Shown: piece after piece, positions 14,073 to 30,090 of the stretch
Layout of the letters: each line of letters starts with the position of its first letter
Position numbering within the stretch: position 1 is the stretch's first letter
NCBI GenBank assembly: GCA_030652805.1
Contig: JAUSPT010000071.1
Coordinates: 1 to 49,108, forward strand
Source: a bacterium
GTDB taxonomy: Bacteria; JAHJDO01
DNA length: 49,108 bases
Reading direction: 5' to 3'
Translations under genes and position numbers: made by a program
Notes under the pieces: generated by a model
The model's database searches: none
Told to the model about the DNA's origin: nothing
Seen by the model: the letters and a program-made list of their open reading frames with translations, nothing else

Positions 14073-15347
14073 TTATAAATATTTCAGTGCCTTATCTGCA
14101 ATATCACTCCTAAAATACATCTTGTTAAAATGTATTTCTCCAACTGCTTTATACGCCTTATCAATAGCCTGTTCAATATTAGCACCAAGAGCTGTTACAC
14201 CAAGAACTCTTCCGCCAGAGGTTGCAATATCTACTCCTGCTAAGACTGTGCCTGCGTGAAATACAACTACATCCTGTAATTCCTCAGCTTGTTTAATTCC
14301 TATTATTTTTTCTCCCTTCTTATATGGACCCGGATAACCTCCAGATGCTATCACAACACATACTGCCGTCTCATTTCTCCACTCAATACTCGCTTCATTC
14401 AGCTTTCCATCTATACAGGATTCCATAATATCAATTAAGTCTGTTTTTAGTCTTGGTAGTATTACCTGGGTCTCAGGATCTCCGAATCTCACATTAAACT
14501 CAAGGACTTTCAGTCCACTCTCTGTAATCATAAGACCTGCGTAAAGAACGCCTTTATATGACATTCCTTTTTTTTCCATCTTATTTATTATGGGTTGAAA
14601 GACCTGCGAGGATATCGTCTTCATCATATCTTCATTAATAACCGGAGCAGGGGAATATGCTCCCATTCCTCCTGTGTTTGGCCCCTTATCTCCGTCATAG
14701 ATTGCTTTATGATCCTGAGACGCGACCATTGGTATAAAACTCTCTCCATCACAGAATGCAAGTATTGATGCCTCTTCTCCAACTAAGCATTCCTCAATCA
14801 TAATTTTATCTCCAGCTTTCCCAAATGCCCTTTTAACCATTATCAGTTCAACCGCTTCTAATGCTTCTTCTTTTGTTTTTGCAACAATCACGCCTTTCCC
14901 AGCAGCAAGTCCGTCAGCTTTTACGACAATGGGAACAGGTTGCGATTTTATGTACTGTGCGGCTCTATCTGAATCCTCAAATACTTCGCACTTACCTGTT
15001 GGCACTCCTGCTTCAAGCATTATCTCCTTTGCAAAGATCTTACTTCCTTCAAGCTGAGAAGCACCCTTTGACGGACCAAAGACTCTTAAATTTCTTTTTT
15101 CAAATTCATCAACTATCCCCTTTGTAAGGGATGCTTCAGGACCAACCACAGTTAAATCGATTTCCTTCTCTTCTGCAAAACGGATAAGTTCAGAAATATT
15201 CTCAGCTTTTATTGGAACACATTCTGCTTTCTGACTGATACCAGCATTTCCCGGAGCACAATAGATTTTAGAAACTCTTAGACTCTGAGCAATCTTCCAG
15301 ACAAGTGCATGCTCACGTCCACCACTTCCAATAACCAGAACCTTCAT
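14073..15347 (-). CDS. purD: Phosphoribosylamine-glycine ligase
   Basis: Second step of purine synthesis: phosphoribosylamine plus glycine plus ATP gives GAR. MKVLVIGSGGREHALVWKI is the standard PurD start. The ATP-grasp domain is seen in PIVVKADGLAAGKGVIVAKT (about residues 134-153), IMIEECLVGEEASILAFCDG and FNVRFGDPETQVILPRL (about residue 282). The length of 424 aa is normal. A well-formed promoter lies just upstream (15373-15401). purE follows, giving a two-gene pur operon; the other purine genes are elsewhere except purH at 31134. Confidence 0.95.
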   Translation of the reverse strand: MKVLVIGSGGREHALVWKIAQSLRVSKIYCAPGNAGISQKAECVPIKAENISELIRFAEEKEIDLTVVGPEASLTKGIVDEFEKRNLRVFGPSKGASQLEGSKIFAKEIMLEAGVPTGKCEVFEDSDRAAQYIKSQPVPIVVKADGLAAGKGVIVAKTKEEALEAVELIMVKRAFGKAGDKIMIEECLVGEEASILAFCDGESFIPMVASQDHKAIYDGDKGPNTGGMGAYSPAPVINEDMMKTISSQVFQPIINKMEKKGMSYKGVLYAGLMITESGLKVLEFNVRFGDPETQVILPRLKTDLIDIMESCIDGKLNEASIEWRNETAVCVVIASGGYPGPYKKGEKIIGIKQAEELQDVVVFHAGTVLAGVDIATSGGRVLGVTALGANIEQAIDKAYKAVGEIHFNKMYFRSDIADKALKYL

Positions 15348-15540: not shown

Positions 15541-16386
15541 TTAATATTCCTTAGGCAAATCATTTAATTCAGCCAGAGAGAAGATAGGGCCATCTTTACA
15601 GACGTATTTATTGCCTATATTACATCTGCCGCACTTTCCTATACCGCACTTCATTCTCATTTCAAGTGAGTTTAATATATTCTCAGGAGAGAATCCTAAT
15701 TCTACAAGCTTTGGAATAGTAAATTTTATCATTACAGGCGGTCCGCATATTATTGCCACTGCCCCCTGAGCAGAGGGGGCGACTTCTCCCACAACAGTTG
15801 GGACAAACCCTTCTCTTCCCTTCCAGCCTTTATCTCCTTTATCAACGGTAACGTATAATTTTACATCATCTCTTTCAGCCCATTCTTCCAGCTCTTTTTT
15901 ATAAATTAGGTCGTCTGGACTCCTTGCCCCATAGATAACTGTAATATTTTTGAACTTGTTTCTGTTATTGTGATGAATCATATATGTAGTTAAGGAACGC
16001 AGGGTTGTAAAAGCAAAACCGCCTCCTATAACCACGACACTTTTACCTATAATATTTTTTGACTGAAAACTATTGCCAAAAGGGCCGCGAATCCCGACTT
16101 CATCTCCTGTAAATAAGTTGTGAAGAGCGTTTGTCACCACTCCCTTTTCATACCACTTAACAGTGAACTTTAAAATCCCCTTCTCTGTTGGAGATGATGC
16201 TATTCCTATTGGCGCTTCTCCAGCGCCTAAAACAGAAATTTCTGCAAACTGGCCTGGTAAATATGAGAAAATTTTCTCATCTTCCTTGTTTAGAAATGCA
16301 AGCTCAAATGTTTTAATATCCTTAGCTGTCGTTTCATTCGTTATTCTTTTAATTATCATAGGTATAGGCAAATAGGGATTATTCAT
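15541..16386 (-). CDS. FlxA/HydG-like FAD-NAD(P)H oxidoreductase subunit
   Basis: Flavoprotein of the ferredoxin-NADP reductase family, like sulfhydrogenase gamma (HydG), AsrB or FlxA, passing electrons between NAD(P)H and Fe-S partners. The FAD-binding barrel is about residues 10-105, with YLPGQFAEISVLG and APIGIASSP taking the place of the 'RxYS' motif. NAD(P) binding follows at VVVIGGGFAFTTLRSL and AIICGPPVMIKFT. The C-terminus has a cysteine cluster CGIGKCGRCNIGNKYVC for a [2Fe-2S] centre, as in PyrK/HydG. It is the last gene of the minus-strand array, its start overlapping the FlxB-like stop (ATGA). It is probably the entry point of NAD(P)H electrons to the HdrA complex. Confidence 0.82.
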   Translation of the reverse strand: MNNPYLPIPMIIKRITNETTAKDIKTFELAFLNKEDEKIFSYLPGQFAEISVLGAGEAPIGIASSPTEKGILKFTVKWYEKGVVTNALHNLFTGDEVGIRGPFGNSFQSKNIIGKSVVVIGGGFAFTTLRSLTTYMIHHNNRNKFKNITVIYGARSPDDLIYKKELEEWAERDDVKLYVTVDKGDKGWKGREGFVPTVVGEVAPSAQGAVAIICGPPVMIKFTIPKLVELGFSPENILNSLEMRMKCGIGKCGRCNIGNKYVCKDGPIFSLAELNDLPKEY

Positions 16387-17396
16387 TTCGACTCCAGTAT
16401 ATCTTTTAGTGTTTTTCTAATATCCAGATTAACAGGACAGTACTCTACACATCTTCCACAGCCTACACATCCATAGTCGCCCACATTTGTCTTTAAATAA
16501 TCAAATTTATGCATAATTCTCTGCCGCCATCTTTCCTTTTGCGTTGCTCTGGGATTATGTCCAGAGACATGTGATGTAAATTTCGGAAACATACACGAAT
16601 CCCAATTCCTCACCCTACAACCTTTCTCTCCTATAGTTTCATCCTGAATATCAAAGCAGTAACAAGCCGGACACAGATATGTACATATACCGCATTTTAT
16701 GCATTTCTCGTGAATTTCATCCCAGATTGGAGACTCAAACATTCCATGCAATTTTTTATTTATATCTTTTATTTCAAAAACAGGTTTTAGTCTTTTTTCT
16801 GCGTTCTTTTTAAGCTCCTCTGCTTCCTTGATATCTTCCTGAGAAGCATTATCAAGATGCACAAAAAGCTTCTCGCACTGTTTTGTTACAGGAATAATAA
16901 GATGCTTTTCTTCCAGTTCAACAAACAACGCATCAAGTCCCTCAATTGAAAAAGGGCCTCCCTCAACAGACGTACAAAAACATGTCTGCCCGGGCTCATT
17001 ACATGCCATACCTATAATGAGAGTGTTTTTTCGCCTGCTTTTGTAATATGAATCAGTTATATTCTCCAGAAATACCTTATCCAGCATAGCAATGGCCTTT
17101 CCATCACATGGACGAACCCCAAATAGGAGACTTTGTCTCTTTTTTCGCTTTAGATCTGTAATCTCATTACTGTTTCCTTTTTTGACAAATCTGAAAAGTT
17201 CCTCTGATTGAGGGAGTAAAAACTCCTTCACAGAATTTTTTGTATTTGAATAGGAAAGGCATATCTCATCTGCTTTATCAATCTTTGAGAAAAGGATACC
17301 TTCCTCTTTCTTTACAGGAGCAAAGAAATCATACTCTTTAACAAGCTTACTGATAAATTTCGGCAAATCTTTTTTTGCTAATATCTTGTTTTTCAT
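16383..17396 (-). CDS. FlxB/AsrA-like 4Fe-4S subunit
   Basis: Iron-sulfur subunit resembling sulfhydrogenase beta (HydB), anaerobic sulfite reductase A (AsrA) and FlxB. The N-terminal ~220 residues match that family (LFGVRPCDGKAIAMLDKVFLEN, GMACNEPGQTCFCTSVEGGPF). Two [4Fe-4S] motifs follow: CIKCGICTYLCPACYCF (about residue 233) and CVGCGRCVEYCPVN (about residue 312). It would carry electrons between the flavoprotein subunit and HdrA. The length of 337 aa is normal. Both ends overlap the neighbouring genes by 4 bp, as expected of a stoichiometric complex. Confidence 0.82.
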   Translation of the reverse strand: MKNKILAKKDLPKFISKLVKEYDFFAPVKKEEGILFSKIDKADEICLSYSNTKNSVKEFLLPQSEELFRFVKKGNSNEITDLKRKKRQSLLFGVRPCDGKAIAMLDKVFLENITDSYYKSRRKNTLIIGMACNEPGQTCFCTSVEGGPFSIEGLDALFVELEEKHLIIPVTKQCEKLFVHLDNASQEDIKEAEELKKNAEKRLKPVFEIKDINKKLHGMFESPIWDEIHEKCIKCGICTYLCPACYCFDIQDETIGEKGCRVRNWDSCMFPKFTSHVSGHNPRATQKERWRQRIMHKFDYLKTNVGDYGCVGCGRCVEYCPVNLDIRKTLKDILESK

Positions 17397-18232
17397 TTTA
17401 TAAAATCCTGGCTGTCATCCTCTTTAAATGTTGTAAATGGAGGTTTAATCTCTATATCAAGCCCTGTTTCATAGTCAAAAAGTGCTTCCCCGTCTTTTGT
17501 AATCTTCTGAGTGAACTGCCTCAGGTCTATATTCATTGGACATGCTCTTACACATGCTCCACAATCTGTGCATCTTCCAGCTTGATGGAAAATGCGTCCA
17601 AGATGAAAGAAAATAATATCAGAGAGATTATTAGTTGTGCCAACCCATCTTGGTTTTTCCTGATCAATAAAACATTCCTTGCAATAACATGTCGGACACG
17701 CATTTCTGCACGCATTACATCTTATACATTTTGATAATTCTAACTCAAGATATTGCCACTTATCAGAAGAAGATTTTTTTTCAAACTTTTCAACCTCTTT
17801 ATACTTATCTTTCTTCTTGTTTTCTTTAACTTTCTCTCCAACAAGCACATCATATATTACAGGGTTCTTATGTTCGCATATAAGACAGTAATCATGAAGC
17901 ACATTGTTCTTATCAGTCATTCCCTCGCATGGTATGCCAATAATATATAATTGCTCCCGTTTTATCTGATTTTCCTGAATAAGAACTACTATGGATCTTG
18001 AATCACACCCTTTAGCCACAATCCCAATTTTATCCTTGCGTTTTGGCAGATAATTTGCCAGATTATTCCCGCAAAACGAGTTCCATATAAGTCTATCCGC
18101 CTGATCAGGGCTTTTTATAAAACACGGAGCTACACACGAAGGAAGTGTCCCTTTTTCAAAACCAATAACAACATCTACTTTTTTCTCTTTAAGAAGTTTT
18201 CTAGCGATGTCCTGTATTTTTTTATCTTTCAT
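17393..18232 (-). CDS. FlxC-like FrhB/4Fe-4S subunit
   Basis: Iron-sulfur protein of the FlxC type. An N-terminal segment (VVIGFEKGTLPSCVAPCFI, GIVAKGCDSRSIVVLIQE, IIGIPCEGM) is typical of Frh-B/CoxF-like proteins. A charged linker rich in Lys (about residues 125-160) leads to two [4Fe-4S] motifs, CIRCNACRNACPTCYCKEC and CTDCGACVRACPMNID. It would join FlxA, FlxB and the MvhD-like protein to deliver NAD(P)H electrons to HdrA. Overlaps of 4 bp on both sides argue for a single complex. No transmembrane segment. Confidence 0.78.
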   Translation of the reverse strand: MKDKKIQDIARKLLKEKKVDVVIGFEKGTLPSCVAPCFIKSPDQADRLIWNSFCGNNLANYLPKRKDKIGIVAKGCDSRSIVVLIQENQIKREQLYIIGIPCEGMTDKNNVLHDYCLICEHKNPVIYDVLVGEKVKENKKKDKYKEVEKFEKKSSSDKWQYLELELSKCIRCNACRNACPTCYCKECFIDQEKPRWVGTTNNLSDIIFFHLGRIFHQAGRCTDCGACVRACPMNIDLRQFTQKITKDGEALFDYETGLDIEIKPPFTTFKEDDSQDFIK

Positions 18233-18672
18233 ATTTCCTTTACCAGCTTCTTTGCAGGGCCGAGTTTTTTGACTTCCTCTGTTACCTCTTTTATAACTTC
18301 TGCAAATTTGCCGCCTTCAGAAGCAGACACCCATGAGAAATGTATTCTTCCCGGCTCAATGCCAACATATTGAAGCAAGCTATTTATGATAGCAAACTTT
18401 CTTCTAGCATGATAATTACCTGTTAGATAATGACAATCTCCCGGATGACAGCCTGAAACCAAAACCCCGTCAACTCCATGTTGAAGAGATCTGATTATAT
18501 ATAGAGGATTCATTCTGCCTGAGCATGGTACACGGATAATCCGCACATTAGGCGGATACTGCAGTCTGCTTATTCCAGCCAGATCAGCTCCTGCGTATGA
18601 ACACCAGTTACAGAGAAAAGCAATTATCTTTGGCTGCCAGCTTTTAGCTCTAAATTTTGAATTCTTATTCAT
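18229..18672 (-). CDS. MvhD/FlxD-type iron-sulfur subunit
   Basis: Small [2Fe-2S] protein that bridges HdrA to its electron donor (MvhD in methanogens, FlxD in bacterial Flx-Hdr). Conserved cysteines are all present: FLCNWCSYAGADLAG, RVPCSGRMNP and SGCHPGDCHYLTGN. The length of 147 aa is normal. It follows the giant HdrA by 10 bp and overlaps the FlxC-like gene, the usual position for this subunit. Compared with the paralogue at 28413, it keeps the full cysteine set and so is more likely the working partner of HdrA. Confidence 0.88.
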   Translation of the reverse strand: MNKNSKFRAKSWQPKIIAFLCNWCSYAGADLAGISRLQYPPNVRIIRVPCSGRMNPLYIIRSLQHGVDGVLVSGCHPGDCHYLTGNYHARRKFAIINSLLQYVGIEPGRIHFSWVSASEGGKFAEVIKEVTEEVKKLGPAKKLVKEI

Positions 18673-18682
18673 CTTTTATTCT

Positions 18683-21600
18683 CTACAGCGCGTCAATCTG
18701 CGCAAGAATTTGTTCATCTGTAAAACCGCTAATGGTTATTGCGTTTGGTCTGCATGATGCAGAACATGCTCCACATCCTTTACATAAGGTAGAATTTACA
18801 ATAGCAATATTGCGCTCCTCATTAATCTCTATTGCCTTATAAGCGCATACTTCAACACATAATCCGCAACCGTCGCATTTACTCTCATCAACAACAGAAA
18901 TAGTACCCTCTGCAAAAATCTGTTTTTTACTCAATACAGTACATGCTCTGCCTGCTGCTGCATATGCCTGAATAATACTTTCCCTTATATTTTTTGGCCC
19001 GTGAGCAAGACCGCACATAAAAATACCTTCAGTCGAAAAATCAACAGGACGGAGTTTCATGTGCGCCTCAAGAAAGAACCTATCCTCATTTAATGGCACT
19101 TTCATCATTTGTGAGAGCTCTATATTTTCAGGATTAGGTATAATTCCTGCACTCAAAACCAATAAATCTGTATTTAAATCCATCTGCTTTCCAACGATTA
19201 TATCCCTAACAGAAACAATTAATTTCTTCTTATTATCCAGGTTAACATCCGGTTTCTCATCATCGTTGTATCTTATAAAAATCACCCCTCTATCCCTTGC
19301 TTCTCTGTATGCATCTTCATAGAATCCGTATGTTCTCATGTCTCTGTACAGAATATAAATCTCAATCTCAGGATTTATTTTCTTTAATAGGAGTGCGTTC
19401 TTTATTGCCTGCTGGCAACAGACTCTGCTGCAATAAGGTCTCTCGTCATCTCTTGAGCCAACACACTGAATCATTACAATAGACTTCTTGGCATCCAAGT
19501 TAATATTAGAACAGGATATCATATGTTCCAATTCTTTTTGCGTAACAATTCGTTTATCTCTCCCATACAGATATTCTGTTGGCTTATATTCCTCTGCTCC
19601 TGTTGCAACAATAACAACTCCATGCTTAACTTCCATTAATTTTGAATTATTAATTTTTAATTTTGAACTGAAGTTTCCCACATATCCTTCAATTTCTCCG
19701 ACATGCGAGTTTAAATAGACGTTTATATGCTTATTATTCTTAACCTGTCTTTTCAGATTTTCCAATTTGTTCCTGATTTCTTGTCCACTTATATCAAAAT
19801 GAATATTCTTTAAATTCCCTCCAAGTTCAGCTTCTTTTTCAATAAGATGTGTTTGGAACCCATTGTTTGCTATTGACAGCGCAACAGTCATGCCAGCTAC
19901 ACCTCCGCCAATAACAAGAGCTTGCTGCACTACATCTGATGCTATCCTCTCAAGAGGACGTTTAAAGCGCGATTTTGCTACAATCATTTTAACCAAATTC
20001 TTTGCTTTGTCTGTAGCCTCTCTGGGCTGCTTCATATGTACCCATGAACATTGATCCCTGATATTCCCCATTTCAAATAAATAAGGATTCAGCCCGGCTT
20101 CTTTAATTGTCTCCTGAAATAGAGTCTCGTGTGTTCTCGGGGAACAGGAAGCAACGATTACCCTGTTTAAGCCATGCTCCTTAATCTTATCCTTAATTAT
20201 TTGTTGAGTATCCTGGGAGCATGTATATAAATTCTCATCAGCATACACAACATTTGAAAGTGTTTTTGCATATTCAACAACCTCTTTAACATCCACCACA
20301 CCGCCAATATTAATACCGCAATGGCATACAAAAACACCTATTCTGGGTCCCTGTCCACGGATATCAAGCTCTTTTGGATATGCTTTCTCTTTTATTAATG
20401 CACCACGTACACCAGATAACGGCTCTGCAGCTGCAGCTGCAACTCCACTTGCTCCCATTACAGTCTCAGGAATATCCTTTGGACCGCTAAATGCCCCACA
20501 TACAAATATTCCAGGTTTAGAGGCATGCAGGGGAAGAAAGTCTCTTGTATCACAAAAATTATATTGATTAAGCTTAATGCCAATTTTTCTTGCAAGATTG
20601 GAAATCTTCTTAGAAGGCTTCAGCCCTACTGAAAGAACAACAAGATCAAATTCCTCAAAGAATATATTTCCCTCTTCATTGACATATCTTAATGTAATAT
20701 TACCTGTGTTTTTATTTTCAACTGCTTCTGAAACTCTTGATCTTATAAATCTTACGCCATATTCAGCTTTTGCTCTTTCATAATATTTGTCAAAGTCCTT
20801 GCCATACGCCCTCATATCCATGAAGAAAATACCAATATCCAGTTTCTCCCTGCTATGTTCCTTTGCTATAATTGCTTCTTTTATAGCATACATGCAACAC
20901 ACAGAAGAGCAGTATCCAGCTTTGCAGTCAACATCTCTTGAACCAACGCATTGAAGAAAAGAAATTCTCTTTGGCGATTTCCTGTCAGAAGGTCTTAACA
21001 GATGCCCTTCGTAAGGCCCTGAAGCAGATAAAATTCTCTCAAATTGAATACTGCTTATTACATTTTTAAATCTGCTATATCCATAATCATATTTCAATTG
21101 CGGATTAAATTCCTCAAAGCCCGGCGCAAGAATTATTGAGCCAATATTTATATGTGCAAATTCATCTTTCATGTCATGGTCTATTGCATTTGCCTGACAT
21201 ATTTTTTCACATTCACCGCACCCGGAACAAATTCCGCAATTAAGACATCTTTCCGCTTCTCTCTTTGCGTCTTCTTCTGAGAATCCAAGCTCAACTTCAG
21301 AGAAATTTTTAACCCTCGGTTTAATATTAAGCTCTGGCATTCTCACTCTGTTTTCAGGTGTAAGATAATCTCCAACATCCGGATCGCTTGGATTACCCTG
21401 AACCGTTTTGTATGTTAATTTTACCCCATGTAAATATCCCATTATTGATACAGCTGCTTTCTTCCCAGCTGCAATTGCCTCTATAACCGTGCCTGGTCCG
21501 CTGGTAACATCTCCGCCTGCGAATATGCCTCCTTTAGCGGTCTGGCAGGTGTCAGCCTCAGCATCAATTGTCTTCCATTTGCTGATAACTATGCCATGGT

Positions 21601-23131
21601 CTTCTGAGATAAAAGACAGGTCTGGGGATTGGCTTATAGCAGGTATTAACATATCTATCTCAACAATAAAATCAGTTTTGGGTATCGGGACAGGTCTTCT
21701 TCTTCCACTGTCATCAGGTTCACCAAGCTTCATTTTTTGACAAACAACCTTGCGAGCTTCGCTCTTTTCTCCAACTATTCTCAACGGAGCGGCTAAATAG
21801 ATAATATCAATTCCTTCTTTCTCTGCTGCTCTTATCTCCTCCTCATCTGCAGGCATTTCTAGTCTAGTGCGCCTGTATATGATTGTCACTTTACTGGCTC
21901 CCAGTCTCAGGGCAGTTCTGGCAGAATCCACAGCTGCATTTCCTCCTCCTATAACAACAACTTTCCCTTTAACTTGTTTAAGCTTTCCAAGATTTGCCTC
22001 TCTCAAAAATGCCACGCAATCCAATACGCCTCGCATCCCTTCACCGGGAATACCCAGCTTAAGCCCCTTATGAGCACCTGCTGCAATGAACACAGCTTTA
22101 TATCCCATTTTGTTTTTTAAGTCGCTAAAACTGATTTTATCTCCTATGCAGATATTTGTTTTTATCTCAACGCCCAGGTCCTGAATCATTCTAATTTCTT
22201 TGTTTAATATATTTTTAGGTAGGCGATATTCAGGTATGCCTACTGCAAGCATTCCACCTGCAACAGGCAATGCTTCAAATACTGTAACAGGATATCCTTC
22301 TCGTGCTAGATCATAAGCACAGCTCAAGCCAGCTGGTCCAGAACCAATAATTGCAACTTTTTCCTTCTTTCTTCGTTGCTTTTCCTTAATCCTTAATCCT
22401 GAATCCTTAATCCTATTTTTCCCTTCCCAATCCGCAAGGAAGCGTTTTAGAGATCTTATAGCAATTGGCTGATCATATTCTCCTCTTTTGCATTGTGCTT
22501 CACATGGATGATGACAAACCCTGCCGCACACTGCAGCAAAAGGAATTCTCTCTCTTACAAGATCAAGCGCCTCTTTATACTTGCCTGCAGAAATAAGCGC
22601 AATGTATCCATGTGGATTGACCCCTGCAGGACAGGCAAGTCTGCATGGAGAAATATCATTTTTCTCAATTGTATATGCATTTGGATATGCCTGTGGAAAC
22701 GGTCTGTAAATAGCTTTACGAGACACTAATTCCTGGTTGAACTCATCAGGAACCTTTACAGGACATACATCTTCACATTCAGCGCATCCGGTACACTTTG
22801 TTGTATCTATAAATCTGGATTTCCTCCTGATACGTACCATAAAATTGCCAGCCTGACCGGAAATATTTTCTATGTCTGAATATGTAATGTTCTCTATATT
22901 GAGATGCCTGCCGCACTCAACCAGTTTAGGGGACATTATGCACATAGAGCAATCATTAGTGGGGAAGGTTTTATCAAGCTGAGCCATTACGCCGCCAATT
23001 GTTGGCGACGATTCCACAAGATAAACCTTAAACCCTGACTCAGCAAGATCCAAAGACGCCTGTATGCCCCCGATTCCTGCACCAACTACCATTACTGAAG
23101 CTACAGGCTTGTTTTTTTGTTTATTTGACAT
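18683..23131 (-). CDS. hdrA: Giant HdrA-GltD-HdrA fusion flavoprotein
   Basis: Predicted core of an electron-bifurcating Hdr complex, 1482 aa, more than twice a usual HdrA. Order: first HdrA Rossmann fold (VVGAGIGGIQASLDLAE, about residue 16) and ferredoxin CTGCAECEDVCPVKV; inserted GltD/NfnB-like module, residues ~160-620, with N-terminal Fe-S region (CRLACPAGVNPHGY, AVCGRVCHHPCEAQC), FAD fold GSGPAGLSCA and NADPH fold VIGGGNAAVDSA; first HdrA half resumes (CLNCGICSGCGECEKIC, LQCVGSRDVDCKAGYC); then a second full HdrA (GVFVCHCGINIGG at ~930, VIGGGVAGMTVA at ~1070, CVGSRDDERPYCS) ending in two [4Fe-4S] motifs (CDGCGLCVEVC, CKGCGACSASC). Three FAD sites are expected. Two 7-bp-phased repeats fall in linkers. 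Confidence 0.88.
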   Translation of the reverse strand: MSNKQKNKPVASVMVVGAGIGGIQASLDLAESGFKVYLVESSPTIGGVMAQLDKTFPTNDCSMCIMSPKLVECGRHLNIENITYSDIENISGQAGNFMVRIRRKSRFIDTTKCTGCAECEDVCPVKVPDEFNQELVSRKAIYRPFPQAYPNAYTIEKNDISPCRLACPAGVNPHGYIALISAGKYKEALDLVRERIPFAAVCGRVCHHPCEAQCKRGEYDQPIAIRSLKRFLADWEGKNRIKDSGLRIKEKQRRKKEKVAIIGSGPAGLSCAYDLAREGYPVTVFEALPVAGGMLAVGIPEYRLPKNILNKEIRMIQDLGVEIKTNICIGDKISFSDLKNKMGYKAVFIAAGAHKGLKLGIPGEGMRGVLDCVAFLREANLGKLKQVKGKVVVIGGGNAAVDSARTALRLGASKVTIIYRRTRLEMPADEEEIRAAEKEGIDIIYLAAPLRIVGEKSEARKVVCQKMKLGEPDDSGRRRPVPIPKTDFIVEIDMLIPAISQSPDLSFISEDHGIVISKWKTIDAEADTCQTAKGGIFAGGDVTSGPGTVIEAIAAGKKAAVSIMGYLHGVKLTYKTVQGNPSDPDVGDYLTPENRVRMPELNIKPRVKNFSEVELGFSEEDAKREAERCLNCGICSGCGECEKICQANAIDHDMKDEFAHINIGSIILAPGFEEFNPQLKYDYGYSRFKNVISSIQFERILSASGPYEGHLLRPSDRKSPKRISFLQCVGSRDVDCKAGYCSSVCCMYAIKEAIIAKEHSREKLDIGIFFMDMRAYGKDFDKYYERAKAEYGVRFIRSRVSEAVENKNTGNITLRYVNEEGNIFFEEFDLVVLSVGLKPSKKISNLARKIGIKLNQYNFCDTRDFLPLHASKPGIFVCGAFSGPKDIPETVMGASGVAAAAAEPLSGVRGALIKEKAYPKELDIRGQGPRIGVFVCHCGINIGGVVDVKEVVEYAKTLSNVVYADENLYTCSQDTQQIIKDKIKEHGLNRVIVASCSPRTHETLFQETIKEAGLNPYLFEMGNIRDQCSWVHMKQPREATDKAKNLVKMIVAKSRFKRPLERIASDVVQQALVIGGGVAGMTVALSIANNGFQTHLIEKEAELGGNLKNIHFDISGQEIRNKLENLKRQVKNNKHINVYLNSHVGEIEGYVGNFSSKLKINNSKLMEVKHGVVIVATGAEEYKPTEYLYGRDKRIVTQKELEHMISCSNINLDAKKSIVMIQCVGSRDDERPYCSRVCCQQAIKNALLLKKINPEIEIYILYRDMRTYGFYEDAYREARDRGVIFIRYNDDEKPDVNLDNKKKLIVSVRDIIVGKQMDLNTDLLVLSAGIIPNPENIELSQMMKVPLNEDRFFLEAHMKLRPVDFSTEGIFMCGLAHGPKNIRESIIQAYAAAGRACTVLSKKQIFAEGTISVVDESKCDGCGLCVEVCAYKAIEINEERNIAIVNSTLCKGCGACSASCRPNAITISGFTDEQILAQIDAL
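19638..19665 (-). repeat. 7-bp-phased repeat (AATTTTG type) in HdrA
   Basis: On the plus strand, four heptamers: AATTTTG AATTATT AATTTTT AATTTTG. Read on the minus strand they encode the KLKINNSKL stretch of HdrA (about residue 1155), a surface linker before the conserved HGVVIVATGAEEYKPTE. The same residues and repeat recur in the paralogue at 29774-29801. Confidence 0.7.
22384..22411 (-). repeat. 7-bp tandem repeat (CCTTAAT) in HdrA linker
   Basis: Four tandem heptamers on the plus strand: CCTTAAT CCTTAAT CCTGAAT CCTTAAT. On the coding strand they encode IKDSGLRIKE in the linker between the Fe-S region and the FAD fold of the inserted GltD module. The basic, low-complexity linker around it (to EKQRRKKEK) has no counterpart in the homologous NuoF-GltD protein. 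Confidence 0.8.
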
Positions 23132-23143
23132 GGAGCTAGTATA

Positions 23144-24889
23144 TTATCTCTGCTTAATTATCTTTATAAAGGCATCTACTGCTTCTGGGTCGAATTGTGT
23201 TCCTTTATTCTTCTTGAGTTCCTCAATAGCTTGATCTTCATTCATTGGTTTCTGTCTGTAGGGTCTTCTGGATGTCATTGCGTCAAAGGAATCTGCAACT
23301 GCCAGAATTCTTGCAATAAGTGGGATGTTCATTTTTTCAAGACCATCGGGGTAACCCCTTCCGTCAAAACGTTCATGATGATGTCTTATTAATGGAGCTG
23401 CATCTTTGAGGAACTCCAGCGGTTCTACGAGTTCTGCTCCTTTTGTTGGATGTGTCTTAATCTCTGCAAATTCTGCAGTGGTTAATTTGTCTGGCTTGTT
23501 TAATATTCCGTCCGGGATAGCAATCTTCCCAATATCATGCAACCGCCCTGCATATCTAATAATTTTTAATAGTTCCTCTTCTACCTTGAGTTCCTTTGCT
23601 ATGCCAATAGCATAATTTGTAACACGTTCTGAATGACCGCGAGTGTATAGATCCCTTGCTTCGATCGTAAGAGCAAGGGTCTCTATTGTTTCTAAATAAT
23701 TTTTCTTAATGGTATCGTAAAGCTTGGCATTCTCTATGGCAACCGAAATATGATTTGCAAACGCACTCAGTAAGTCAATATCATTCTGCTCAAATTCATG
23801 TGGGGATTTTTTGTAAACACTGATTAGACCTATCACTCGAATCTTAGATTTTATTGGGACAGAAAGCAGTGCCACTAACCCCTCGTTTTTTAGAAATTCA
23901 TTATAATCTACCCTTTTGTCTTTTCGAATATCGCATATTGCAATCGGCTCCGCATGCTCTGCAACATAACCTCCAACACCTTCTCCCATTTCCAACGGTC
24001 CTTTTCTCATATATTCACCACTCAGATTGTGCCCGGCACGAATTAGAAGCTTGTTCTTGTTCTCATCATCCAGCAGTCTCAAAGAACATGACTCAGTATT
24101 CGTTATCTCTGTTGCCATTTTTGCAATGTAATCCAGTGTCTTCTGCAGATTAAGTGAAAGGTTGATTTTTTCACTAACACTACATAAAGTAGAATGCTCT
24201 TTTGCTTTTTTGGTAACATCATGATACGCGCGAACATTCTCAATTAATATAGCAGCCTGACTTGCAATAGCTATCAAAGAATCCAATTCATCCTGAGTGA
24301 ATGATTTGCTGTTTTTTTTATTTGTGCAGTTTATAACTCCAAGCAGCTCTCCTTTTGAAATTATAGGAACAGATAATAGAGATTTTCCCTTGTATATAGG
24401 ATTATTTGTTCCTGAAAATCTTGATTTTTCAATATCTTCTATAAGCAAAGGCTGCCTTTCCTGCGCCACCCATCCAGAGATTTCTTTTTCTTCTCCCAGT
24501 TTTATTCTGGTACTCTCTATTATTTCATCCCCTAAACCAACAGCCGCTTTTATGCTCAATAGGTTTTTATCCTTATTAAAAATCATTATGCTTCCCACTT
24601 TGCAATCAAGTGCCTTTGTTACCACATTAATAACCTTACTCAGAATTTGTTCAAGGTTTCCTGATGATACAAAAACGCTGCTTATGCTTTGTATTGCTGA
24701 TAACTGCTTAACCTTACTGGAAAGCTCATCAACATGTTCTTGAAGATCCTTATTAAGTTTCTCAAGCACACCGTGATATTTTGTTTCTGTAATATTCTCC
24801 CGCTTTTTCAATAAAAGGAATATATTTATTACAATCATTGCAATTAATGTTACTAACAAAAAGAAATTTATAATGACCTGCAATGGCAT
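23144..24889 (-). CDS. Membrane GAF-GAF-HD-GYP phosphodiesterase
   Basis: Predicted cyclic-di-GMP (or related dinucleotide) phosphodiesterase. One N-terminal membrane helix (about residues 5-27, VIINFFLLVTLIAMIVINIFLLL) leads into a coiled coil. Two GAF sensor domains follow, about 60-215 and 230-385 (EISGWVAQERQPLLIED in the first, GVGGYVAEHAEPIAICD in the second). The HD-GYP output domain is about 390-581, with RLHDIGKIAIPDGILNKP and HHERFDGRGYPDGL complete. The location is odd: it lies between hdrC and the giant hdrA, 6 and 12 bp from them, so it is made with the redox complex. GAF domains may sense a ligand or redox state; which one is unknown. Confidence 0.9.
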   Translation of the reverse strand: MPLQVIINFFLLVTLIAMIVINIFLLLKKRENITETKYHGVLEKLNKDLQEHVDELSSKVKQLSAIQSISSVFVSSGNLEQILSKVINVVTKALDCKVGSIMIFNKDKNLLSIKAAVGLGDEIIESTRIKLGEEKEISGWVAQERQPLLIEDIEKSRFSGTNNPIYKGKSLLSVPIISKGELLGVINCTNKKNSKSFTQDELDSLIAIASQAAILIENVRAYHDVTKKAKEHSTLCSVSEKINLSLNLQKTLDYIAKMATEITNTESCSLRLLDDENKNKLLIRAGHNLSGEYMRKGPLEMGEGVGGYVAEHAEPIAICDIRKDKRVDYNEFLKNEGLVALLSVPIKSKIRVIGLISVYKKSPHEFEQNDIDLLSAFANHISVAIENAKLYDTIKKNYLETIETLALTIEARDLYTRGHSERVTNYAIGIAKELKVEEELLKIIRYAGRLHDIGKIAIPDGILNKPDKLTTAEFAEIKTHPTKGAELVEPLEFLKDAAPLIRHHHERFDGRGYPDGLEKMNIPLIARILAVADSFDAMTSRRPYRQKPMNEDQAIEELKKNKGTQFDPEAVDAFIKIIKQR

Positions 24890-24895
24890 GTTTTT

Positions 24896-25375
24896 TTACC
24901 CCTGAGATTTTATGAACTCTTTGACTTTAGCTGTTATATTCTCTCCTGCTTTATCAACTGGTTGTTCTTTTGTAAGACACTTAATAATATCAAGTCTTAT
25001 TTTTTGTGCCAGATTATCAATGTTATACACCTTATCTAAAAAATCCTTCCTAACATGACCTTCCTTTATTGCTAGGTACCTGAGCACTGCCATAATATCT
25101 GTAAATTTAACATTCTGTGGGCATTGCGCGTAGCATGTATAACAGCTACAGCAATACCAGATTACTTTAGAGGAGAGTACCTCTTTCTTCATGCCAAGCA
25201 GTACCATGCGAATAATTTTTCTTGGATTGAACTCCTCATCTACTTCACTCACAGGACATCCTGCAGTACATGTGCCACAGGAAAAGCATTTTTTAATATT
25301 TTCTCCACCTGGCTGCGCACCTACCTCATATTTAAAGTTTTTATCAAGTTCATCAGAACTAATTTTATCTTTCAC
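24896..25375 (-). CDS. hdrC: HdrC-like iron-sulfur subunit
   Basis: Fe-S subunit that normally links HdrA to the disulfide-reducing HdrB. Two [4Fe-4S] motifs are visible: CFSCGTCTAGCPVSEVDEEFNPRK (about residues 35-58) and CCSCYTCYAQCPQNVKFTD (about residues 84-102). The length of 159 aa is typical. No HdrB (CCG-domain) gene is found next to it or anywhere in the window. metF lies 39 bp upstream and the HD-GYP gene 6 bp downstream. Together with MetF/MetV this suggests that HdrC may deliver electrons to the methylene-THF reductase; that is inference. Confidence 0.87.
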   Translation of the reverse strand: MKDKISSDELDKNFKYEVGAQPGGENIKKCFSCGTCTAGCPVSEVDEEFNPRKIIRMVLLGMKKEVLSSKVIWYCCSCYTCYAQCPQNVKFTDIMAVLRYLAIKEGHVRKDFLDKVYNIDNLAQKIRLDIIKCLTKEQPVDKAGENITAKVKEFIKSQG

Positions 25376-25390
25376 TTGCCCTTGTTTCCC

Positions 25391-25413
25391 TTAATTAAAA
25401 ATTCAAAATTATA
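25391..25413. repeat. 7-bp-phased repeat between metF and hdrC
   Basis: Minus-strand reading is AATTTTG AATTTTT AATTAAG, the same heptamer family as in hdrA and its paralogue. Here it is intergenic and lies directly downstream of the metF stop, upstream of the hdrC RBS. Confidence 0.6.
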
Positions 25414-25414
25414 T

Positions 25415-26326
25415 TTATGGTCTTGGAAATAATCCGACCATTTTTACGATCTCGGGCACTACTTCTTCCCACTGAACTGCCATTATGTGAATACCATGAA
25501 CACCTTTTATCTTTTTCAACTCTTCTATGGTTTCAATACATATATTTATACCTTCCTCCTTAGGGTCATTAGCGCTCTCTATACGTTTCAAGATTTCCTG
25601 AGGCACACTAACCCCTGATACGTTTTCAGCCATATGCTTTGCCATATTATATGATTTAATGGGAGTGACACCCGCGAGAATGTGCGTCTTCTTGTCTAAT
25701 CCTTTATCCTCCACCATTTTCATCCATTCAGAAAACCTGTTCATATCAAATATACACTGTGTTTGAATAAAATCCGCTCCAGCTTTTATCTTTTTCTCAA
25801 GTCTTATAACTCTGAATTCCAGAGGATCTGCAAAAGGATTTGCTGCTGCGCCTATAAAGATTTGGGGAGGCGTTTTTATCGCATCACCGCCTAAAACCTT
25901 TTGTTCATCCCTCATCATCTTCAAGAGACTTACAAGCTGTATGGAATCTATATCAAACACATTTTTTGAATCGGGATGATTTCCAAAACACTGATGATCG
26001 CCAGTAATACAGAGAATATTTTTCACTCCTAATGCAGCTGCGCCAAGAACATCGCTTTGGATAGCGATCCTGTTGCGATCCCGACAGGTCATTTGAATTA
26101 CAGGCTCAATACCCTGATCCAGAATTATTCTACCTGCGGCTATACTGGACATTCTGACTATTGCAGTTTGATTGTCAGTAAGGTTTGCTGCGTCTACATA
26201 GTTTTTTAATATCTGCGCCCGTTTTATAACAAACTCTTTATTTGCGCTTTTAGGAGGCCCTAATTCTGCAGTAATAGCGAACTTGCCTGAAGTTAAAACG
26301 GTTTCAAGATTACTTCCTGATTTCAT
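25415..26326 (-). CDS. metF: Methylenetetrahydrofolate reductase (MetF)
   Basis: Reduces 5,10-methylene-THF to 5-methyl-THF, the last folate step of the methyl branch of the Wood-Ljungdahl pathway. The FAD-bearing barrel is recognisable: FAITAELGPPKSANKEFVIKRA, DAANLTDNQTAIVRMSS, QMTCRDRNRIAIQSDVLGAAALG, ILCITGDHQ, GAAANPFADPLEFR and FIQTQCIFDMNRFSEWM. The length of 303 aa fits the short bacterial/acetogen type, which lacks an NAD(P)H-binding extension and depends on a partner. metV is directly upstream (6-bp gap), as in acetogens. The start ATG at 26326 fits. Confidence 0.92.
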   Translation of the reverse strand: MKSGSNLETVLTSGKFAITAELGPPKSANKEFVIKRAQILKNYVDAANLTDNQTAIVRMSSIAAGRIILDQGIEPVIQMTCRDRNRIAIQSDVLGAAALGVKNILCITGDHQCFGNHPDSKNVFDIDSIQLVSLLKMMRDEQKVLGGDAIKTPPQIFIGAAANPFADPLEFRVIRLEKKIKAGADFIQTQCIFDMNRFSEWMKMVEDKGLDKKTHILAGVTPIKSYNMAKHMAENVSGVSVPQEILKRIESANDPKEEGINICIETIEELKKIKGVHGIHIMAVQWEEVVPEIVKMVGLFPRP

Positions 26327-26332
26327 AAACTA

Positions 26333-27004
26333 TTATTCTCTTACATCCTGCCTTATGACTTTTCTGGGGCCTCCGTCTCTTGAGGTCTTCCAGCTTTTTG
26401 CAGGCTCTATTTTTAGGAGTTTATCAAGTTGTCCAAGGAGTTTCATTCTGTCATAGATTAATTGCCATGCACAATCAATATTATCCGGATCCACCTCGCA
26501 TTTACCATCTACTGATCCTCCGCATGGACCATTAAGCAGGCTTTTCGAACACCTGGCGATATGGCATATGCCGCCAAAATCTGCCAGCCTGCAGTCTCCA
26601 CATCCAGCACATGTTTCAGTCCATTGTCCCTGTTCTTCAGGCAAACCCATAAACTTTGGATTAAGCGCGGGATAAACTAGTTTCCCTTCATACATCTTTG
26701 CAATGAGCTGCACTCCTATTCCACAAGCCATTGACAGTATAATATCATGTCCTTTAATTTCACTCTCTATTTCTTTAACAAACTCCTCCTCACACTGACG
26801 TTCTGTAACTTGTTCTGTAATTTCTATGGGCTTACCTTGTTTCTTCTTTGCTATTTTAACTAAAGAAGCAAGTTCAGAGACCTCTTTTTCTCCACCTGCC
26901 ATACAAATGGCTACACAAGCGTTACAGCCAACAATAAGCAACTTCTCACAATCTCCAAGCATATCCAGAATTTCCTGAATAGGCTTCCTATCAGCAACTA
27001 TCAT
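26333..27004 (-). CDS. metV: MetV (MTHFR C-terminal-like Fe-S/Zn protein)
   Basis: Partner subunit of MetF in acetogens (MTHFR_C domain). The N-terminal part has LLIVGCNACVAICMAGGEKE. The C-terminal part has ETCAGCGDCRLADFGGICHIARCSKSLLNGPCGG, the cysteine-rich block that binds Fe-S (and probably zinc), and ends DGKCEVDPDNIDCAWQLIYDRM. It would relay electrons to MetF's FAD from a partner such as the Hdr proteins. It has 223 aa. It overlaps folD upstream (ATGA) and precedes metF, so folD-metV-metF forms one translational run. Confidence 0.92.
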   Translation of the reverse strand: MIVADRKPIQEILDMLGDCEKLLIVGCNACVAICMAGGEKEVSELASLVKIAKKKQGKPIEITEQVTERQCEEEFVKEIESEIKGHDIILSMACGIGVQLIAKMYEGKLVYPALNPKFMGLPEEQGQWTETCAGCGDCRLADFGGICHIARCSKSLLNGPCGGSVDGKCEVDPDNIDCAWQLIYDRMKLLGQLDKLLKIEPAKSWKTSRDGGPRKVIRQDVRE

Positions 27005-27891
27005 CTTATAGATCTCTGCATTCTCGCAGCTTTTATAGTATTATGCATAAGCATTGTAATTGTCATAGGCCCAACGCCGCCCGGAACAGGTGTAATAGCA
27101 CTCGCTATTTCTTTTACTTCCTCGAAATCCACATCCCCAACAAGTTTGTATCCCCTTTCTGAGCTTGAATCATCAACCCGATTAACTCCCACATCTATAA
27201 CCACTGCGCCATGTTTAACCATATCTCCCTTTATCATCCTTGCTCTTCCAATAGCAGCAATTAATATATCCGCCTGTTTGGTATAGTAAGACAAGTCCCC
27301 GCTTCGTGAATGGCATACAGTGACTGTTGCATTAGCACCTTGCGCTTTTTGAAGCAGAATTAGCGCAACAGGTTTGCCTACAATATTACTCCTGCCAACT
27401 ACAACAACATGTTTCCCTTCAATCTGGATGCCGCTTTTAAGAAGAAGCTGCTGAATGCCATATGGAGTGCATGGCAGAAAGGAAGGCTTGCCAATAACAA
27501 GATTGCCCACATTTACCGGATGAAAGCCGTCAACATCCTTTGATGGATCAATAGCGTTAAGAACCTTATCTTCATCAATATGGTCCGGCAGGGGAAGCTG
27601 AACAAGAATGCCATGAACCTTCTCATTTGCATTGAGCTTATTAATAAGTTCTAGCAGGTCTTGTTCTGGAGTTTCTCGTGGCAGTTTGTGCTCTTCAGAG
27701 TATATTTCAAGCTTTTGGCACGCCTTTTTTTTCATATTGACATAGACTCTGGAAGCAGCATTATCTCCTATCAGGACAACAGCAAGTCCGGGAATTAGAT
27801 TATATTTGTTCTTAAGGCTCTCCACCTCAATCTTCATCTCTTCTTGCATCTGAGCAGCAATCGCCTTACCATCTATAATCTTTGCAGACAT
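27001..27891 (-). CDS. folD: Methylene-THF dehydrogenase/cyclohydrolase
   Basis: Bifunctional folate enzyme interconverting 10-formyl-, methenyl- and methylene-THF, feeding methylene-THF to MetF. The catalytic YVNMKKKACQ (Y-x3-K) is near residue 50, the substrate loop is VQLPLPDHID, and KDVDGFHPVNVG is a FolD signature. The nucleotide-binding fold has VVGRSNIVGKPVALIL, VTVCHSRS and GAVVIDVGVNRV, then PVPGGVGPMTITMLMHNT at the end. The length of 296 aa is normal. Overlap with metV by 4 bp. It could also supply 10-formyl-THF for PurH, whose gene starts the same array. Confidence 0.95.
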   Translation of the reverse strand: MSAKIIDGKAIAAQMQEEMKIEVESLKNKYNLIPGLAVVLIGDNAASRVYVNMKKKACQKLEIYSEEHKLPRETPEQDLLELINKLNANEKVHGILVQLPLPDHIDEDKVLNAIDPSKDVDGFHPVNVGNLVIGKPSFLPCTPYGIQQLLLKSGIQIEGKHVVVVGRSNIVGKPVALILLQKAQGANATVTVCHSRSGDLSYYTKQADILIAAIGRARMIKGDMVKHGAVVIDVGVNRVDDSSSERGYKLVGDVDFEEVKEIASAITPVPGGVGPMTITMLMHNTIKAARMQRSIR

Positions 27892-27895
27892 ATGT

Positions 27896-28348
27896 TTAGT
27901 ATCCTGCCTGATTCAGAAATCTTATATGAAACTCATAGCATTTATTGTGTGCAATCTGAATAGTGCGTCCAAAATATCCGGGTTTTCCCCATCTTATCAT
28001 CTCCCATATGCCAAGCGGAACGCCCCACACAAGACCTGTAACAAGCGATTCTGCAGCTATTATAGGAGTAGCTATAAGAACCTCAAATATAGTCTTTTTC
28101 TCTTTTTCGCGATAAAGATTAGGCCTTAAAGGGTAATCCTCTGGTTTAGCTCTCCATGTAAACAGCTTCCATGGGATTGATACAAACGGCGCAATAATGG
28201 GTGCCGGCAGCCATGTCGGCATAAAGAGTAACTCCCTGGTTGCCTGATTTGATTGCCCTATTAATGATTCTTCTTCCTGAGCAAATGCAGCAAGACTTGC
28301 AGAAAAAACTAGTGTTATTACTATTAACGTAGCTAAAAACTTCTTCAT
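27896..28348 (-). CDS. Small exported protein of unknown function
   Basis: I do not recognise the family. A clear signal peptide opens it (MKKFLATLIVITLVFSASLA, cleavage likely after AFA). The mature part (~125 aa) has two hydrophobic stretches rich in Pro and Trp (LFMPTWLPAPIIAPFVSIPW; then TPIIAAESLVTGLVWGVPLG) between polar segments, and ends IRFLNQAGY. It may be peripheral to the outer face of the membrane. It has a strong RBS (AAGGAGGAG) and lies 4 bp upstream of folD, inside the redox array, with no obvious link to one-carbon metabolism. Confidence 0.75.
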   Translation of the reverse strand: MKKFLATLIVITLVFSASLAAFAQEEESLIGQSNQATRELLFMPTWLPAPIIAPFVSIPWKLFTWRAKPEDYPLRPNLYREKEKKTIFEVLIATPIIAAESLVTGLVWGVPLGIWEMIRWGKPGYFGRTIQIAHNKCYEFHIRFLNQAGY

Positions 28349-28412: not shown

Positions 28413-28823
28413 TCAAACACCTCCTTTCTTCCATTTCTTGTATATTGGCCCAAGCTCTGAAGCCTGTAACATTACATCCCCAAAAGCACTACGGAATTTC
28501 TCTTCCATATTAGGTGCAAAGTTGAGAATTTGCAAGCGTTTATCCTCAATGTCCAATTCCTTCAACATATTACAAGTGGCCTCCACAACTTTTTCTACTC
28601 TTATATTTCCATTTATAAAGTGACATGCTTCTTCTATGCATGCAATTACTATAACCATATCCTTCCCGGATTCAAAACATTTAAGTATATGAATACTACT
28701 AATCTTCCCGGAACATGGAACCTTTATAACTTGAATATTGCTGTGGTGTTTACTAACACTTAACGCAGTTTCATAAACTGAATTCTCACAGCAGAAGACA
28801 GTAATATTTGGTTTATATGTCAT
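28413..28823 (-). CDS. Divergent MvhD-like iron-sulfur protein
   Basis: Second MvhD-family protein of the window (136 aa), placed directly after the split HdrA pair. The framework matches (TVFCCENSVYE, IKVPCSGKISSIHIL, IACIEEACHFINGNIRVEK, LGPIYKKWKK). Compared with the usual CxxC...C...C..C pattern, the second Cys of the first pair is Ser (CCENS against CNWC), so its cluster may be altered or absent. It may still act as a docking or electron-transfer subunit for the 30087/28831 proteins. A 64-bp gap separates it from the exported-protein gene. Confidence 0.75.
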   Translation of the reverse strand: MTYKPNITVFCCENSVYETALSVSKHHSNIQVIKVPCSGKISSIHILKCFESGKDMVIVIACIEEACHFINGNIRVEKVVEATCNMLKELDIEDKRLQILNFAPNMEEKFRSAFGDVMLQASELGPIYKKWKKGGV

Positions 28824-28830
28824 TACAAAA

Positions 28831-30090
28831 TCACCCTATAAGCTCAAGTATCTTCTCATCCTCATATTCCCTGAGCTGTATTGCTCTTGAGGGACATAGA
28901 GATGTGCAGATTCCACATCCAAAACATGCCTCTTCAATAATCTTTGCAGCTTTCTTGCCTGCTTCGCGAGAGAACTCTATATCTATTGCTTTATGAGGAC
29001 ATGAACGTAGGCATGTGAGACAAAGCGCGCATTTTTCCTCATCTACTTCTGCTGTCTTCTCATCAATTTCTATCGCACTCTTTGCAATCAGGTTATGAGC
29101 AGCATATGCAGCTGTTAACGAATCATCTAATATATCATTCAGCCCGGCATCAATATGACATGCTCCAGCAAAGAATATGCCTTTCCTATTTGACAAATTT
29201 GGCATAAAGTGAACATTATTATTCTGAAAAAACCCTTGTTTATCTCTCTCAACACCAAGTATACCCGAGAGCTCTTCTGTGCCCTGGCTGGGAAGAATAT
29301 TTTCCCCAATTACCAGCCAGTCACACTTCAGTTGAAGATCTCTTATGTCTATTCCCTCTACAGCAGAATCTGTTGAGCTAAGTTCAACAAATATTAGGTT
29401 GTTATATGGAGATATTTTCATCTGAGACTTAAGAGGCTTTATAAATACAACTCCTTTTTCTCTGGCATCCGTATATGATTGCTCAAATTTCTTACCAGCA
29501 ACTTTTATATTGCGGGATATTACAAATACCTCACATCTTAATTTTTCTCTGAGAAGCAAAGCATTTTTTAGTATAGATAATGCTATTATTTGAGAATCCT
29601 CCTTGTCAAAATCACATAGAAATACGACTTTTGACAATCTTCTTATCTTGCTATCTGCAATGCAATCTTCAAGACGGGTATGATTGATTATCCTTTGAGA
29701 ATTGCAATCCATCTTTGGCGTGGATATATTAATTCCTGTTGCAATAATAACTGCCCCATGCTTAACGTTAATTAATTTTGAGTTTTTAATTTTTAATATT
29801 GAATTGAAGCTTCCAACATATCCTTTGGCCTCTATTAATTCTGTAGAGGTAAGCACGGTTATATTTGAGGATTTGTTCAATTTTGATATTTGCTGAGAGA
29901 CAAAATCTTTCGCACATATATCCATGCCATATATGCTAAAAAGATTATTTAACCTGCCACCCAGGATTTCTCCTCTTTCAATTAGAGTTACTTTATGCCC
30001 TTGTTCCCCAAGGTATATTGCAGCAGTTATTCCTGCAATGCCTCCACCAATTATAAGAATGCCTCCGTTTACTCTAATTCGTCTGTTCAC
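28831..30090 (-). CDS. HdrA-like flavoprotein, C-terminal half type (QmoB-like)
   Basis: FAD protein of the HdrA/Qmo family, 419 aa. The Rossmann fold is ILIIGGGIAGITAAIYLGE (about residues 11-29) with ILGGRLNNL after it. The HGAVIIATG segment follows at ~120. Two ferredoxin motifs at the C-terminus are CALCLTCLRSCPHKAID and CFGCGICTSLCPSRAI. The CVGSRD block of HdrA is changed to VVFLCDFDKEDSQ, so the disulfide-like/FAD loop has diverged. With the upstream 344-aa protein it makes up about one HdrA split in two, or a QmoA/QmoB-like pair. It overlaps that gene by 4 bp. Confidence 0.8.
   Translation of the reverse strand: MNRRIRVNGGILIIGGGIAGITAAIYLGEQGHKVTLIERGEILGGRLNNLFSIYGMDICAKDFVSQQISKLNKSSNITVLTSTELIEAKGYVGSFNSILKIKNSKLINVKHGAVIIATGINISTPKMDCNSQRIINHTRLEDCIADSKIRRLSKVVFLCDFDKEDSQIIALSILKNALLLREKLRCEVFVISRNIKVAGKKFEQSYTDAREKGVVFIKPLKSQMKISPYNNLIFVELSSTDSAVEGIDIRDLQLKCDWLVIGENILPSQGTEELSGILGVERDKQGFFQNNNVHFMPNLSNRKGIFFAGACHIDAGLNDILDDSLTAAYAAHNLIAKSAIEIDEKTAEVDEEKCALCLTCLRSCPHKAIDIEFSREAGKKAAKIIEEACFGCGICTSLCPSRAIQLREYEDEKILELIG
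29774..29801 (-). repeat. 7-bp-phased repeat in HdrA-like gene
   Basis: On the plus strand, AATTTTG AGTTTTT AATTTTT AATATTG. On the coding strand it encodes LKIKNSKL before NVKHGAVIIATG, the same place as in the giant HdrA. It may have been inherited by both paralogues rather than inserted twice. Confidence 0.65.

Follow-up and report, generated by a model that had tools for sequence, protein, structure and literature searches.

This report concerns a run of genes for Flx, Hdr and MetFV proteins on the minus strand of a 49,108-nucleotide stretch of bacterial DNA (the window, positions 1 to 49,108 of contig JAUSPT010000071.1, assembly GCA_030652805.1, lineage JAHJDO01). The run lacks the disulfide-reductase subunit HdrB. 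This HdrB-less Flx-Hdr-MetFV locus is a new form of a known energy-saving enzyme and recurs in at least three phyla. The cluster can be read, at about even odds (a probability of roughly 0.5), as an HdrB-independent variant of the Hdr-type (type IV) methylene-tetrahydrofolate (methylene-THF) reductase, in which a relay made of a split HdrA-like pair and a second MvhD replaces HdrB. The assembly examined (host genome, G000) comprises 2.0 Mb in 102 contigs and is 95.6% complete.

All the main subunits lie on the minus strand. The upstream half begins with two HdrA-like proteins, HdrAn (344 aa, 30087..31121; NF040770, 246 bits; 5odc_A, 197 bits) and HdrAc (419 aa, 28831..30090), the latter with a degenerate flavin lobe and two C-terminal [4Fe-4S] motifs. 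They are followed by MvhD2, a second [2Fe-2S]-type subunit of the FlpD/MvhD family (28413..28823; PF02662, 92.7 bits), by the methylene-THF dehydrogenase/cyclohydrolase FolD (27001..27891; PF02882 and PF00763), by MetV, the Zn/Fe-S partner of MetF (26333..27004; PF12225, 116 bits), and by the methylene-THF reductase MetF itself (25415..26326; PF02219, 159.5 bits). The downstream half contains HdrC (159 aa, two [4Fe-4S] clusters, 24896..25375; TIGR03290, 97 bits; best Foldseek match 5odc_C), an HdrA of 1482 aa (18683..23131), recognized by profile matches and by alignment of its flavin-lobe signatures, and an FlxD/MvhD-like [2Fe-2S] subunit (18229..18672; PF02662, 189 bits). It closes with an FlxC-like iron-sulfur (Fe-S) protein with two CxxCxxCxxxC motifs (17393..18232), an FlxB-like Fe-S protein of the HydB/ShyB/AsrA family (16383..17396; PF17179, 114.6 bits; NF040829, 203 bits) and an FlxA-like FAD/NAD(P)-binding subunit with a DHODB-type Fe-S site (15541..16386; PF00175, PF00970, PF10418).

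Family profiles confirm every gene named in an earlier note on this DNA, namely FlxA, FlxB, FlxC, FlxD/MvhD, HdrA, HdrC, MetF, MetV and FolD. That note omitted a GAF-GAF-HD-GYP gene between hdrC and hdrA and drew the run too short, missing MvhD2, HdrAc, HdrAn and purH upstream and ending just before FolD. Most genes in the run overlap by 4 bp or lie less than 40 bp apart, with exceptions of 64 bp (5' of a small protein gene described below) and 193 bp (after FlxA); from FlxA to FolD the junctions range from -4 to +39 bp. A scan for promoters and terminators gave counts near the shuffled expectation. MetV has invariant cysteines in an alignment of nine homologues, and its AlphaFold model is poor (pLDDT, the predicted local distance difference test score, 66.5) with no convincing fold match in the PDB. 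The HdrC model is good (81.8), and its fold is plainly HdrC-like.

HdrB was sought through its CCG domain (PF02754), a profile that finds matches in 12 of 14 control genomes. The window contains no match, as the earlier note had stated, and the genome-wide search it called for returned none in the host. Four other genomes of the genus also gave none; two of them (G001 and G002) encode MetV, and both have the present locus. The same locus is present in G153, a single contig that is 98% complete, and here again no CCG protein was found, nor was one found in G290 (99% complete) or in the genomes of loci L005 and L011. The genomes of L002, L003, L004 and G276 each encode one CCG protein, never inside the MetFV locus. 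In G276 this protein is the HdrB encoded at another locus (L154), a canonical HdrC-HdrB-HdrA-FlxD-FlxC-FlxB-FlxA cluster. This genome thus provides an internal control, keeping HdrB in its ordinary Flx-Hdr cluster and lacking it in the MetFV-linked one. It might be argued that HdrB exists and is missing from the assembly or supplied by another locus, given that the host is a draft genome. This is very improbable, since G290, the single-contig G153 and all five genomes of the genus gave zero counts, which speaks against a gene concealed in the genome or lost with a contig, and no HdrB-less locus that was read contains hdrB.

MetV neighborhoods drawn from a 385-genome panel, from further genome contigs and from the small phylum around G276 reveal two classes of Hdr-linked MetFV locus. 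Seven loci, including three from Desulfoluna (L006, L007, L009) as well as L084, L090, L093 and L096, carry HdrB in the order HdrC-HdrB-HdrA-MvhD-MetV-MetF, which is the type already published. The HdrB-less class has the order HdrA-like pair-MvhD-MetV-MetF-HdrC-HdrA-FlxD, usually followed by FlxC-FlxB-FlxA. It occurs in the window, G002, UASB270 (L002), Chloroflexota (L003, L004, L005, L011), G276, G393, G395, G153 and G290. G276, G393 and G395 belong to one small candidate phylum, and UASB270 is presumably Ca. Vecturithrix, a genus placed in Ca. Moduliflexota; the order therefore spans at least three bacterial phyla. The downstream half is only partly visible in L011, which stops in MetV, and in L149 (G395), which stops inside HdrA, while the G001 locus (L001/L062, a single contig) is cut at FolD. 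Because it is conserved across phyla, the gene arrangement goes beyond chance, and the HdrB-less cluster is a real, non-accidental one. As a separate observation, three loci of the small phylum (L080 in G276:C60, L150 in G393:C153 and L149 in G395:C516) hold two metV-metF pairs, of which the divergent-type pair stands directly upstream of the split HdrA.

Wherever an HdrB-less locus includes upstream sequence (12 of 12 cases), the HdrA-like pair together with MvhD lies 5' of MetV, and none of the seven loci with HdrB shows this; in UASB270 the pair is fused. This association bears directly on the reading given in the earlier note, in which MetFV substitutes for HdrB, docking on HdrC; on that reading the HdrA pair upstream would have no essential part. 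The absence of HdrB and the adjoining of metF and hdrC in HdrB-less loci speak for direct docking, but it disregards the split HdrA and the second MvhD, and it is unlikely. It also makes HdrC the partner of MetV, although MvhD stands beside MetV in both locus classes. MetV thus already has another neighbor, and MvhD is a likelier one than HdrC. Pulldowns in Sporomusa detected MvhD-MetF and MetV-HdrA contacts and no MetV-HdrB contact (PMC9430772). MvhD2 adjoins MetV in most homologous loci; in the window, FolD and a 150-aa protein intervene.

The locus counts do not represent independent events, because the HdrAs of the HdrB-less loci share one clade, with support of 100/99, when the tree is built from HdrA lobe 2. 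The simplest history is a single origin of the Hdr-Flx half with some mixing with MetVF.

Domain analysis of the HdrA proteins separates a putatively bifurcating subunit from a putative relay. In the 1482-aa HdrA, a GltD/NfnB-type NAD(P)H lobe is inserted into the first flavin lobe at about residues 160-570. An HdrA N-domain (928-1070), the second flavin lobe and, at the C-terminus, a ferredoxin domain with two clusters follow, and Moorella HdrA has the same domain layout (PMC9430772). The E356/K409 signature (M. thermolithotrophicus numbering), a published mark of bifurcating HdrA flavins (PMC9430772), is present in both flavin lobes. HdrAn consists of a thioredoxin-reductase-like flavin lobe without ferredoxin domains and aligns end to end with the 349-aa 6tjr_A. 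It retains the CVGSRD..VCC motif and the glutamate, and arginine takes the place of K409 in each of the eight homologues examined. In HdrAc the cysteine motif is gone, as is the E/K signature in most homologues, although the HdrAc of the window does have E and K in the signature columns of the alignment; two [4Fe-4S] motifs (CxxCxxCxxxC at 354 and 389) are kept. The pair is fuller in G276 and its relatives, with proteins of 424-428 and 569-595 aa, the second having an HdrA N-domain, so that the short HdrAn-HdrAc seems to be reduced from a two-lobe HdrA.

The GltD slot of the large HdrA varies between loci. It is filled by a NuoE/NuoF-like module in UASB270 (L002 12221-15282) and by a formate-dehydrogenase-like molybdopterin oxidoreductase in a Chloroflexota metagenome-assembled genome (L004 7095-13371). 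Such variety is as expected of an exchangeable electron-input slot, which the insert may well be.

HdrC scores below the TIGR03290 equivalog cut-off (97 bits against 160), a model that spans only about the first 80-105 positions of HdrC in both MetFV classes. A C-terminal motif, missing on the HdrB-less side, separates the HdrCs of HdrB-bearing from those of HdrB-less MetFV loci and places the window protein in the HdrB-less subfamily. Two loci outside these classes (L152 in G394:C22 and L153 in G393:C148) hold another Hdr cluster, in which a 1152-1159 aa fusion of HdrA lobes with an MvhD/FlxD domain lies beside HdrC and HdrB.

Taken as one enzyme, the gene products would form a complex in which electrons from NAD(P)H enter by way of FlxA-B-C, which would pass them to the [2Fe-2S] protein FlxD, or straight into HdrA at its GltD lobe, or by both routes. 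The earlier note had named Flx as the NAD(P)H donor, which the complete FlxA-D set bears out; the GltD/NfnB-type lobe is a second possible entry that it did not consider. A bifurcating flavin in the large HdrA would send one electron to ferredoxin, the second acceptor, and the other to HdrC. From HdrC the electron would pass to the non-bifurcating HdrA relic, HdrAn-HdrAc, with MvhD2, and from there to MetV and the MetF flavin to yield methyl-THF. This relay, rather than MetFV itself, would occupy the HdrB position of Moorella-type complexes. The assignment draws on the strict association of the relay genes with HdrB absence, the loss of the bifurcation signature and the conserved adjacency of MvhD and MetV.

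NADH has a potential of about -320 mV, and ferredoxins lie at about -400 to -500 mV. The methylene-THF/methyl-THF couple has a potential of -200 mV (PMC5861303). With these values, methylene-THF reduction coupled to ferredoxin reduction would be feasible with little energy lost. A fuller and more tentative proposal, somewhat below even odds, is that a single soluble enzyme uses NAD(P)H to reduce both ferredoxin and methylene-THF, with two HdrA systems acting one after the other: a bifurcating one, then a non-bifurcating flavin relay in place of HdrB. Such an enzyme would have arisen once along with its HdrA and later passed from phylum to phylum; it would dispense with disulfide and non-cubane cluster chemistry and supply biosynthetic methyl-THF in non-acetogens.

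The main competing explanation is that the operon encodes two enzymes linked solely by soluble ferredoxin. HdrC-HdrA-FlxDCBA would then be an NAD(P)H:ferredoxin (or transhydrogenase-like) oxidoreductase, and HdrAn-HdrAc-MvhD2-MetV-MetF a ferredoxin-fed methylene-THF reductase. Several observations favor this separation or weigh against a single complex. Reduced ferredoxin can serve as electron donor to MetVF enzymes in vitro (PMC9430772, PMC8515935). The Sporomusa MetVF was obtained free of Hdr subunits on purification (PMC9430772), and by analogy the proteins of the window system, for which a single complex is postulated from the genes, may associate loosely or not at all. Insertions separate the halves in some loci; about 9 kb lies between metF and hdrC in G394 (L151), and extra genes sit between hdrC and hdrA, so strict contiguity is not required. 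The MetV tree is incongruent with the HdrB-less grouping and was dropped as evidence of joint inheritance. The HdrC C-terminus was likewise rejected as a marker of lost HdrB contact, as the HdrCs of L152 and L153, which lie outside MetFV loci, have HdrB yet no motif. Finally, genes of purine and folate metabolism belong to the operon too, and co-transcription may reflect shared one-carbon metabolism only.

Against two separate enzymes, direct metF-hdrC adjacency recurs across phyla, and an HdrC on its own, lacking an acceptor subunit, would serve no purpose if it did not pass electrons to the upstream half. In addition, an HdrB-less HdrC-HdrA-Flx set without MetFV nearby was not found in the loci read, although no systematic search for one was made. 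Overall, the two-enzyme alternative is possible but doubtful.

The acetogen setting, which the earlier note invoked for known MetFV-Hdr complexes, does not apply to this host. Acetyl-CoA synthase (CdhC/AcsB, PF03598) has no match in the host, G001 or G002, which rules out Wood-Ljungdahl acetogenesis in the host. It was also not found in G153, G290 or the genomes of L002, L004 and L005, and it is present in those of L003, L011 and G276; in L003 and G276 the contig that carries the locus encodes it. Fhs is present in the host. Homocysteine methyltransferase and MeTr-like methyltransferase genes lie close together (G000:C74) as split MetH-type genes, and a search of the host for the B12-activation domain of MetH found none. 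The absence of acetyl-CoA synthase and the presence of these methyltransferase genes make methionine synthesis the likely sink for methyl-THF. In G153, the locus follows genes for serine hydroxymethyltransferase, a corrinoid protein and Fhs.

The same genes bear on a reversed operation of the complex, in which methyl-THF oxidation would combine electrons from methyl-THF and ferredoxin to reduce NAD(P)+ (confurcation), as in syntrophic or fermentative one-carbon oxidation with H2 released by the adjoining FeFe hydrogenase. The lack of acetyl-CoA synthase fits this direction, as do Fhs, which would permit formate release, and the presence of an NADH-type FeFe hydrogenase (HydABC) and Rex in the window. 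Nevertheless, the methyltransferase genes indicate a methionine outlet for methyl-THF, and with NAD(P)H the downhill direction is methylene-THF reduction; reverse operation has only a slim chance. The hydrogenase cluster itself (window 36898-43972) lies near the run and encodes NuoE-, NuoF- and HydA-type proteins, including a 996-aa NuoF-like/GltD-like fusion.

The surrounding genes add further detail to the operon. The first gene of the run is purH (31134..32819, minus; NF002049, 627 bits). Between it and rex (32995, plus) lies a Rex-operator-like palindrome, TTGTGAAGTTTATCACAA (32968..32985), 10 bp from rex and 149 bp from purH, which may serve rex alone; G002 has TTGTGATAAATTTCACAA in the same place (L060 6279-6296). 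A 150-aa protein with a signal-peptide-like N-terminus and no Pfam match (27896..28348, minus) is encoded inside the run only in the window and G002, where its counterpart is conserved at 94%. The GAF-GAF-HD-GYP protein (23144..24889, minus; PF13487, PF01590) is probably not a subunit of the complex, since other genes replace or join its gene in sister genomes. The insert at the hdrC/hdrA junction differs in each genus member: the GAF-GAF-HD-GYP gene in the window (23144-24889), HD-GYP plus two 359-aa open reading frames, one of them an ankyrin protein, in G002 (L060 14368-18298), and AAA_14/DUF4143 in G001 (L001 2942-4153). On the 3' side of the run, a purD-like gene (14073..15347, minus) and then a purE-like gene (13560-14057, minus), both named by sequence alone, keep the same order in G002. 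A transposase-like open reading frame of 458 aa (window 12135-13511), a call of the same kind, is convergent with the purE-like gene.

To our knowledge, bacteria lack the CoM-CoB (coenzyme M-coenzyme B) heterodisulfide. A conserved natural class without HdrB, in which the bifurcating flavins are retained and the NAD(P)H module is explicit, allows the role of HdrB and the second acceptor of MetFV-Hdr complexes to be put to the test. Such a class also places a presumed catabolic, energy-saving enzyme in organisms without acetyl-CoA synthase. Surveys that demand HdrABC beside MetFV, or in the same genome (e.g. PMC6085437), would overlook HdrB-less complexes.

Within the open literature, to which the comparison was confined, no MetFV-Hdr cluster that has Flx genes and lacks HdrB was found to be described. 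HdrA-like subunits are known to operate with an HdrC-like protein in the Qmo and sulfur-oxidizing sHdr complexes. Qmo differs from the window system in the MetFV link and in the fusion of its HdrC domain to a membrane HdrE domain (QmoC); the match of the 159-aa window HdrC to the 360-position qmoC model is confined to positions 4-112. HdrA and HdrC without HdrB are on record once, in the candidate phylum NPL-UPA2, with a HydB-type (FlxB-like) protein nearby, but there they are sited with etfAB and have no MetVF link (PMC6305446). The FlxABCD-HdrABC (Flox/Hdr) system of Desulfovibrio and its relatives likewise has FlxA, B, C and D next to HdrA and HdrC. Unlike that system, the window cluster has no HdrB, its HdrA has an additional flavin lobe as well as the GltD lobe, and it is genetically linked to MetVF.

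Known Hdr-type MetFV clusters carry HdrB, as the earlier note had stated (PMC9430772, PMC5736913, PMC7325909). The nearest published gene order is the hdrA-mvhD-metVF-hdrCB cluster of Hakuba actinobacteria, in which hdrA-mvhD-metVF is also followed by hdrC; it differs in having HdrB and a single HdrA, with no Flx genes reported (PMC7325909). The type IV MetFV-HdrABC-MvhD enzymes of Moorella thermoacetica and Sporomusa ovata share MetF, MetV, MvhD, HdrC and a large HdrA with the window system, and MvhD lies beside MetV in both. The Moorella HdrA is of equal size and layout, with a thioredoxin-reductase lobe bearing a GltD insert, a second HdrA lobe, a C-terminal ferredoxin domain and E/K in both lobes (PMC9430772). 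Relative to these enzymes, the window system lacks HdrB, places HdrC after MetF, and adds FlxA-B-C together with a split, degenerate HdrA pair and a second MvhD, in a host without acetyl-CoA synthase.

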